The notes beneath the pieces are model-generated. The model worked only from the letters and a program-made list of their open reading frames with translations, was not told where the DNA came from and made no database searches. A DNA stretch of 64,000 bases from Pseudobutyrivibrio xylanivorans DSM 14809 (GTDB lineage Bacteria; Bacillota; Clostridia; Lachnospirales; Lachnospiraceae): the NCBI RefSeq assembly GCF_900141825.1, contig NZ_FQYQ01000005.1:1-64000 (forward strand), written 5' to 3'. A program made the position numbers and the translations under genes. Within the stretch, counting starts at the first letter, position 1, and each line of letters starts with the position of its first letter. This document shows, in pieces, positions 32,516 to 34,096 of this stretch.

Positions 32516-32588
32516 GTAACTAAAATAACATAAATATTATTTTTTAATCAAGAATTTCTATACTAGTACATTAATGATGATTTTAACT

Positions 32589-32624
32589 CAGAGGTTTAGT
32601 CTATGGCTAAACCTCTTTTTATTT
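32589..32624 (+). repeat. 36-bp terminal inverted repeat, left copy (terminator-like)
   Basis: A perfect inverted copy of 32973-33008. Each copy is itself a hairpin (AGAGGTTTAG/CTAAACCTCT with loop TCTATGG) followed by TTTTTATTT. The left copy would terminate plus-strand transcription entering the element. Confidence 0.85.
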
Positions 32625-32646
32625 TAAGGGGTGAAAATGGGAGTTT

Positions 32647-32826
32647 TACTACCTGAATAGATTTTGCTTATAGAGGTAGTAGTTTTTGATTTATAAACTA
32701 CTGCCTATTTTGATAGTTTTTCCTGAGGTAGTAAAAAGTTACTACCTGTGTTCATTTCTTGTATATAGGTAGTAGAATATCTAAAAAAATTTACTACCTT
32801 ATCAAATTAGTAGGTCTCAGGTAGTA
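32647..32826. repeat. Mirror-symmetric array of eight AGGTAGTA half-sites
   Basis: The 8-mer AGGTAGTA or its complement TACTACCT occurs at 32647(-), 32674(+), 32699(-, one mismatch), 32726(+), 32740(-), 32767(+), 32792(-) and 32819(+). Orientation alternates strictly and the start-to-start spacings are 27, 25, 27, 14, 27, 25, 27, symmetric about 32736/32737. Spacers have diverged while the 8-mers are conserved. No gene is present. Confidence 0.8.
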
Positions 32827-32857
32827 AATGCAATGGGCTTTGCCACAGTCCTATTTT

Positions 32858-32975
32858 TTTGAGCTTGTTTGCCTAGTATCTGCCAAAAGAGGCGCTGTCA
32901 AGAGGCGGCGAAGCCGAGCCGCCAGGCCTTGCACTTGACTGGGACTCTTGGCAGATAGAATGAACAAAGCTCAAA
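32858..32975. other. GC-rich imperfect palindrome inside the element
   Basis: TTTGAGC...TATCTGCCAA (from 32858) is matched by TTGGCAGATA...GCTCAAA (to 32975). Inside, GTCAAG pairs with CTTGAC (about 32897-32902 with 32934-32939) and GGCGGC (32904-32909) with GCCGCC (32918-32923). The fold is a 118-base rod, much richer in GC than its surroundings. It could be a structured RNA or a transposon-end-like palindrome. Confidence 0.6.
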
Positions 32976-33008
32976 TAAAAAGAGGTTTAGCCATAGACTA
33001 AACCTCTG
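32973..33008 (-). terminator. 36-bp terminal inverted repeat, right copy; terminator of prfA
   Basis: On the minus strand the hairpin AGAGGTTTAG/CTAAACCTCT is followed by TTTTTATTT, 15 bases after the prfA stop. It is the exact inverted copy of 32589-32624, so prfA transcripts stop as they enter the element. Confidence 0.88.
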
Positions 33009-33022
33009 CGATAAACTCATCT

Positions 33023-34096
33023 TTACTTATCATTCATCTTTGCAAGCTTTGCAGCCTGATCAGCTGCGATAAGTGCATCTAAGATCTCCTGGATATCTCC
33101 ATTCATAATCTTATCAAGCTTGTAAAGTGTAAGGTTAATTCTGTGGTCTGTAACACGTCCCTGTGGGAAGTTGTATGTACGAATCTTCTCGGCACGATCA
33201 CCAGTACCAATCTGTGAGCGACGCTCTGCTGCCTCAGCATCCTGCTGCTTCTGTAACTCTAAATCGTAGAGCTTTGCACGAAGGAGTGCGAAAGCCTTTT
33301 CCTTATTCTGAAGCTGTGACTTCTCTGTCTGGCTGTAGATAACAATACCTGTTGGGTAGTGAGTAAGACGAACAGCTGAATCTGTTGTGTTGACACACTG
33401 ACCACCGTTACCAGAAGCACGCATAACGTCGATACGGATATCCTTCTCTTCAATCTGGATATCTACTTCTTCTGCCTCAGGCATAACAGCTACTGAACAT
33501 GTAGATGTCTGGATACGTCCCTGTGACTCTGTCTCTGGAACACGCTGTACACGATGTACACCTGACTCGTACTTAAGGATAGAGTATGCACCTGTTCCCT
33601 TAACCATGAACTCGATGTTCTTCATACCGCCAATACCTGTCTCGTCTGCCTCAAGAAGCTCAACCTTCCAACCGCGTGACTCAACATAGTGTACATACAT
33701 ACGATAAATCTCTGCTGCGAAAAGAGCTGCCTCTTCACCACCGGCACCTGCACGGATTTCCACAATAACGTTCTTATCATCGTTAGGGTCCTTTGGAAGA
33801 AGAAGAATCTTAAGCTCCTGCTCAAGACGCTCAACCTCAGCCTTTGACTCATTTAATTCTTCCTTTGCAAGCTCCTTCATCTCCTCATCTGTCTCCTCCT
33901 CAAGAAGAGCAAGTGAATCCTCGATGTTCTGCTTGTGTGAACTATACTGCTTATAAGCTTCTACGATAGGAGCTAAATCTGACTGCTCCTTCATAAGAGC
34001 TCTGAAACGTGCATTATCATTTGCAACATCTGGCTCAGAAAGAAGGTTCATAACCTCTTCATATCTAAGTACTAAATCTTCTAATCTATCAAACAT
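33023..34096 (-). CDS. prfA: Peptide chain release factor 1
   Basis: 357 residues, the normal length for RF1. It carries the UAA/UAG-specificity region with [14 protein letters not shown], the universal peptidyl-hydrolysis motif Gly-Gly-Gln within [19 protein letters not shown] (about residue 235), and the C-terminal basic [25 protein letters not shown] segment split over the ribosome-contact domain. It releases nascent chains at UAA and UAG and is methylated at the GGQ glutamine by PrmC, encoded 17 bases upstream in the same operon. The ribosome site is GGAGGTAG; the AGGTAGTA 8-mer of the downstream array happens to occur here (34101-34108). Confidence 0.97.

Follow-up and report, generated by a model that had tools for sequence, protein, structure and literature searches.

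Introduction

Miniature inverted-repeat transposable elements (MITEs) with TA ends include the Correia elements and those of the IS630 type, and homing enzymes cut a single target in the empty allele. The EDxHD/Vsr-like homing endonuclease I-Bth0305I is described as dimerising on a target of nearly 60 bp (PMC3943268). In repetitive extragenic palindrome (REP) and REP-associated tyrosine transposase (RAYT) systems, PMC8266576 describes cognate palindromic sequences that are dispersed in the genome, are possibly non-autonomous and co-evolve with the enzyme, and a review describes TIGR-Tas as a compact nuclease with a regular array (PMC12385481). Here we analyse an element at positions 32589-33008 of a 64,000-nucleotide stretch of Pseudobutyrivibrio xylanivorans DSM 14809 (Lachnospiraceae; contig NZ_FQYQ01000005.1, positions 1 to 64,000), hereafter called the window, together with arrays of short half-sites like the one that this element carries and a family of Vsr/EDxHD-like nuclease genes. 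We propose, with a probability of about 0.55, that the nuclease is a selfish enzyme with cognate helix-phased arrays and that the window element is a carrier with such an array as cargo.

The arrays resemble REP/RAYT systems in that a gene has cognate repeats both beside it and dispersed in the genome, and the same holds for a second half-site type. They differ in that TnpA-REP belongs to the HuH enzymes and its substrates are REP hairpins folded from single strands, whereas here the protein has a Vsr/EDxHD-like nuclease domain, the half-sites are phased and the arrays are long; moreover, scans of Pfam (11 members) and NCBIfam (6 members) named no family for the protein and returned no transposase family, that of HuH (Y1) enzymes included. 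I-Bth0305I is the best structural match of the nuclease domain, and its target of nearly 60 bp is near one 52-63 bp period of the arrays. The presumed targets differ from those of homing endonucleases in being arrays beside the gene, and the loci that were read showed neither introns nor inteins. With MITEs the window carrier shares terminal inverted repeats, the lack of a gene, dispersed copies and TA at its outer ends, but it differs in having large hairpin modules, terminators at its ends and, as cargo, a site array that is exchangeable. The analysis identified no transposase for the carrier, no search aimed at transposases having been made. TIGR-Tas, which likewise combines a compact nuclease with a regular array, was set aside because Pfam scans found no Nop domain (three members at E up to 0.1, eight members at E up to 1), the arrays are phased as duplex DNA, and their spacers are alike and not guide-like.

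Results

The window array occupies 32647-32826 and consists of eight half-sites (TACTACCT/AGGTAGTA) in strictly alternating orientation with spacings of 27-25-27-14-27-25-27, exactly as an earlier note on this DNA had reported. The half-sites lie at 32647-32654 (-), 32674-32681 (+), 32699-32706 (-), 32726-32733 (+), 32740-32747 (-), 32767-32774 (+), 32792-32799 (-) and 32819-32826 (+), and distances between sites of the same orientation are 52, 41 and 52 bp. Seven of the eight are exact, and the single mismatch mentioned in that note is the site at 32699, which reads TACTGCCT. Ten occurrences of AGGTAGTA were counted in the window compared to 1.68 expected, a number reached in none of 100 shuffles, and seven of the ten fall in the array. 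In another genome of the genus, a carrier array with a different half-site (G003, L046:2095-2348) has gaps of 24-30-13-30-23-30-13, its central gap being shortened like that of the window array (14 instead of 25).

Elsewhere in this genome, an intact gene (G000:C41:141699-142484) also has an array of the AGGTAGTA type immediately on its 5' side; the gene product contains a Vsr/EDxHD-like nuclease domain and belongs to a multi-copy family. Among 99 family loci, removal of two duplicates and of five loci with flanks shorter than 250 nt left 92 testable 5' flanks, which were scored with an array detector that assumes no motif and has the maximum of 368 shuffles as its threshold. Arrays were present in 64 of the 92 flanks, many of them orthologues and not independent and a few belonging to broken genes (e.g., L229). 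Most of these arrays have a half-site other than AGGTAGTA; half-sites vary by gene (e.g., TTCGTGT, TGCATCC, TACAGTG, TACCACT, TTTGTCA and TACGGTT), and many paralogues with private half-sites occur within one genome. The control on real DNA comprised 186 flanks of open reading frames (ORFs) from the window and from loci that had mostly been fetched for their arrays. Twenty of these flanks exceeded the threshold, namely three of family genes, 16 adjoining known AGGTAGTA-type arrays and one with a new CACTTAA array, and the other 166 scored 4.6 or less. The CACTTAA array stands alone (G008, L165:2549-2912) and has the same half-site as the G008 gene in L233. Of 30 loci from other genera, 20 scored above their five shuffles (one locus is from the own genome, and a few barely pass), and two arrays of this set are on the 3' side.

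Several side observations concern these gene-linked arrays. A divergent member in the own genome (G000:C19, L217:2258-2595) has a 14-site TTGAAAA array 3' of the gene with a period of about 50. In 55 of the 64 arrays, the spacers are rich in purines when read on the gene's coding strand (mean 0.605), a strand asymmetry. A 22-bp repeat at L209 is unrelated to the arrays.

Spacing in the 64 gene-linked arrays is quantised, with sites of one orientation returning at 52-53, 62-64 or 73-74 bp. Median same-orientation periods are 51-54 bp in 39 arrays, 62-65 bp in 13, 72-75 bp in eight and 43 bp in one, and three further arrays mix steps of 52-53 and 62-63 bp. A common period of 10.6 bp fits best, with R = 0.86 (85 distinct distances from 52 arrays, wider gaps being allowed), compared to a maximum R of 0.38 in 2000 random sets of distances drawn uniformly from 28 to 85. 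The same-orientation distances of the window array agree with this rule. Since these distances are whole helical turns, sites on the same strand face the same way around the helix.

Half-sites are more conserved than the DNA between them. In eight comparisons of related arrays, for which half-sites were chosen by match in one of the two sequences and several sequences were used twice, differences were found at 20 of 680 half-site positions (2.9%) and at 263 of 1394 spacer positions (18.9%); in the two closest comparisons taken alone, the difference was not significant. Mean similarity between half-sites is 0.99 for near-identical proteins and decreases to 0.34 beyond a protein distance of 0.7. 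Strain CF1b has two stand-alone arrays, separated by 8 kb, that share 337 bp at 87.5% identity, and the shared part comprises the L087 array in full and a further 16 and 24 bp. The gene in G008 and G015 has an array on either side, and the two form direct repeats of 329 bp that begin and end at most 3 bp from a half-site. The CF1b pair and these direct repeats imply copying of array DNA that did not include the genes next to it.

The array is present in relatives with its spacing kept, as the idea of a functional element in the earlier note had supposed: with the exact pattern, arrays were detected in 8 of the 29 genomes of the genus. In a collection of 84,980 species the same pattern returned 23 stretches, 17 from Pseudobutyrivibrio and six from Tannerellaceae, the latter with a different spacing (28/16). 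These six are TACTACCT/AGGTAGTA triples (L085, L086, L096, L098, L099 and L102) from two Tannerellaceae/Parabacteroides genomes, with four and two loci. A sequence-only model of four half-sites (R1) matched 16 of the 29 genus genomes, G009 weakly, and gave six matches in 299 sampled family genomes, two of them in genus members and the other four scoring 20-23 bits; copies per genome, whether R1 array matches or nuclease family members, are partly minimum counts. Half-sites of a second type, TGCATCCC, are dispersed as well: their pair pattern occurs in 20 of the 29 genomes, in some of them just once, compared to one genome for the reversed control. Viral contigs contained no AGGTAGTA-type array with the exact pattern.

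Stand-alone arrays mostly have 10-16 half-sites, often 12, and are located between convergent, divergent and co-directional ORFs; arrays also occur at orthologous intergenic places in several species. The longest (G012, L178:4445-5519) has 42 half-sites in an unbroken 27/25 rhythm over 1,075 bp and is flanked by convergent ORFs. A MazE-type antitoxin gene is near one stand-alone array, neighbours having been scanned at few loci. The stand-alone and gene-linked arrays that lack a carrier rule out that the array is an invention of the mobile element. Beyond what the earlier note had recognised, the array is thus separable from the element and tied to a gene family that is encoded elsewhere and has member-specific half-sites.

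The carrier itself is bounded by perfect 36-bp inverted repeats at 32589-32624 and 32973-33008, each containing a 12-pair terminator-like hairpin directed inwards, and its longest frame starting with ATG, GTG or TTG is 40 aa. These findings bear out the inverted ends, the terminators and the absence of genes described in the earlier note. The arms reach 53 bp at 92%, so that the left terminal inverted repeat spans 32572-32624 (+; hairpin 32590-32616, then a T-run) and the right one 32973-33025 (-; hairpin 33007-32981), directly downstream of a prfA-like gene (33023-34096, -). At the outer ends of the carriers, TAAAGATRAGTTTATC precedes the 36-mer, with some variation. A third part, which the earlier note missed, lies to the right of the array at 32835-32982, contains nested inverted repeats and is matched in relatives that do not have the AGGTAGTA window array. 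It begins with a small hairpin, GGGCTTTGCCACAGTCC (32835-32851, +), which borders the right module and is similar to a sequence that borders the left module in complete copies; the right hairpin module, with nested imperfect stems, extends over 32851-32982 and is matched in other species. Complete carrier copies have an additional hairpin module to the left of the array; in the window copy this module has been lost.

About nine copies of the element that bear an array were counted in its own genome: C56 (the window), C17, C30, C19:156k, C54, C19:108k, C10:24k, C23, which is degraded, and C10:355k, which retains only a degenerate end. C21 was left out of this count, as it seems to continue the C19:156k copy beyond a contig break. 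The earlier note had considered that the 36-mers might be a common terminator that also occurs singly; they are the ends of a dispersed element, and several are seen only at contig ends, where single occurrence is possible. In the window, the gap between the prfA-like gene and a response-regulator gene (names from translations) is 507 bp, and both genes were found in eight other genomes. The comparison of empty sites suggested in the earlier note found the same junction without the element in six relatives (G020, G009, G010, G004, G043 and G012), with gaps of 79-222 bp that hold an ordinary hairpin and T-run (by eye). The gap is about 1.3-1.4 kb in G017 and G013, and in G005 the junction is split across two contig ends, with a related element there. 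The empty-site relatives differ in intergenic sequence from the window junction, and none provides a near-identical empty site. Given terminal inverted repeats, no ORF, dispersed copies and empty sites, all of them features of MITEs, the window feature looks like a MITE-like non-autonomous carrier with hairpin ends and an array as cargo. The carrier repeat itself starts with TA, so that a TA target duplication is not distinguishable. At two orthologous insertion sites (L026/L036 and window/L038+L292), the G000 and G005 carriers are apparently oppositely oriented and their arrays are different.

Carriers related by their modules hold different arrays: AGGTAGTA in G000, TTTTGTCA in G005, TGCATCCC in G009, and TGGGGTA and TTATCAA in G003; in G012, a AGTATTAAA array is beside a right-type module (by eye). 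A gene sharing the half-site of the carrier is present in the same genome in G000 and G005 (AGGTAGTA and TTTTGTCA, respectively), in G003 (TTATCAA), and in G009, where the gene was searched for on account of the carrier. The TTATCAA carrier and gene arrays of G003 have the same 43/30 gaps. That the gene is itself cargo of the carrier family was rejected, as none of the module queries match the gene loci L181-L279.

The nuclease domain of the family is that of the candidate defence protein PDC-S68, and RSKSE, PDF and EH are invariant across 21 diverse members. PDB sequences gave no match better than E 0.73, and the N-terminal sheet has no known match in the structural list, which proves nothing. 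Nine relatives were found in viral contigs, all matching the nuclease domain only, and phage and plasmid records gave one 28% match over most of the protein and five partial matches. At E 1e-30, a phylum search matched 5 of 299 genomes, four of them in the same family, the own genome included; the fifth match is the nuclease domain of a longer frame. On the contig of the window, outside it, there is a broken member with several stop codons (G000:C56:104874-105667).

At the comEC junction, compared in 29 genomes, gene plus array follow comEC in 13. The array accompanies a broken gene in G010 and stands without a gene in G023, and G009 retains just a remnant of the gene. Neither array nor gene is present in G006, G041 and G044, where an LprI-domain gene is 381-452 bp away, and neither was detected in the stretch from the remaining ten genomes, which is nearly empty for G001.

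Discussion

If the nuclease is a selfish enzyme with cognate arrays, the predicted partner of the window array is the protein encoded at G000:C41:141699-142484. Its N-terminal part would read the half-site, and protein copies would be aligned on one helix face, 4 to 7 turns apart. The C-terminal domain may then nick or cut DNA at the array, by which array DNA would be copied or recombined into new intergenic places. Gene and array would be a selfish pair, which stand-alone arrays and carriers would follow non-autonomously in the way that REPs/REPINs follow RAYT transposases.

Several results count against this proposal. Twenty-eight of the 92 flanks fail, including many of the most divergent members, and the correlation between protein and half-site is weak. 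The N-terminal fold is of low confidence, and its listed structural matches are mostly coiled coils. For a selfish gene, a position at comEC in 13 of 29 genomes is stable, and the comEC array of G023 lacks the gene. G041, G017 and G006 have AGGTAGTA-type arrays, and their best family member is only 41-43% identical to the query among the matches listed. The carrier module queries match none of the gene loci. In CF1b, the L097 array continues past the shared stretch, and in G008 and G015 one outer one-mismatch site is outside the direct repeat. Since TGCATCCC sites are frequent across the genus, the carrier-gene match in G009 makes a weak test, and no clear cognate was found for the carrier arrays AGTATTAAA (G012), ACTACGT (G005 L041) and TGGGGTA (G003) among the members examined, which were six of eight in both G012 and G003.

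A role in defence or in discrimination of self from non-self, in which the nuclease would cut incoming DNA that has its half-site pair, the paralogues would be a repertoire of specificities and the arrays would hold the enzyme inactive or autorepressed, is suggested by the domain shared with PDC-S68, by the many private half-sites within one genome and by the position of arrays 5' of the gene, which fits autorepression. However, such a role has no need for stand-alone arrays distant from a gene, for carrier arrays or for the 42-site array, and we consider it unlikely, although the MazE-type neighbour makes a defence context conceivable. Equally doubtful is that the protein is a regulator or nucleoid organiser and that the arrays serve it as operators or anchoring sites, both beside its own gene and in a few other places. 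Helical phasing is typical of cooperative binding, and arrays directly 5' of genes and at orthologous intergenic places are consistent with operators, but the invariance of RSKSE, PDF and EH in diverse members speaks against a regulator, as does the location of stand-alone arrays between ORFs of convergent, divergent and co-directional orientation alike.

The earlier note had offered a site array for a DNA-binding protein, a non-autonomous element with such sites, and an RNA with serial hairpins. The first two agree with our results. Transcription of the array as a hairpin chain, as in TIGR-Tas, CRISPR or sponge RNAs, is very improbable. Folding of the element's + strand is much stronger than that of its shuffles (z -13), as it must be with inverted repeats, and the purine bias of spacers on the gene strand would suit a transcript. 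By contrast, RNA hairpins do not need same-orientation spacing in steps of about 10.5 bp, and this quantisation in helical turns is the main reason that we prefer duplex DNA to RNA. In addition, spacers resemble each other within an array, and the window contains no Rfam match at gathering score, the sub-threshold list for the element being chance-like (best E 0.049). As that note had judged, the array is not CRISPR-like: direct repeats with unique spacers were not found, since the repeats alternate in orientation and the spacers are alike.

We found no description of such arrays in open-licence PMC papers, which is a weak negative. The chances seem to us evenly balanced that the selfish nuclease and its arrays represent a previously undescribed class of selfish system in Lachnospiraceae, in which Vsr/EDxHD-like nucleases have private helix-phased arrays, array DNA is copied to other loci and to MITE-like carriers, and enzyme and half-site co-evolve, so that DNA readers and their matching sites would make up a natural library. 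Because spacing is quantised in helical turns, the central claim can be tested directly. If true, a REP-like selfish system would have been built on an unrelated nuclease, one protein family would contain dozens of naturally matched enzyme-site pairs, and the recognition code of a small DNA reader would be deducible from sequence.
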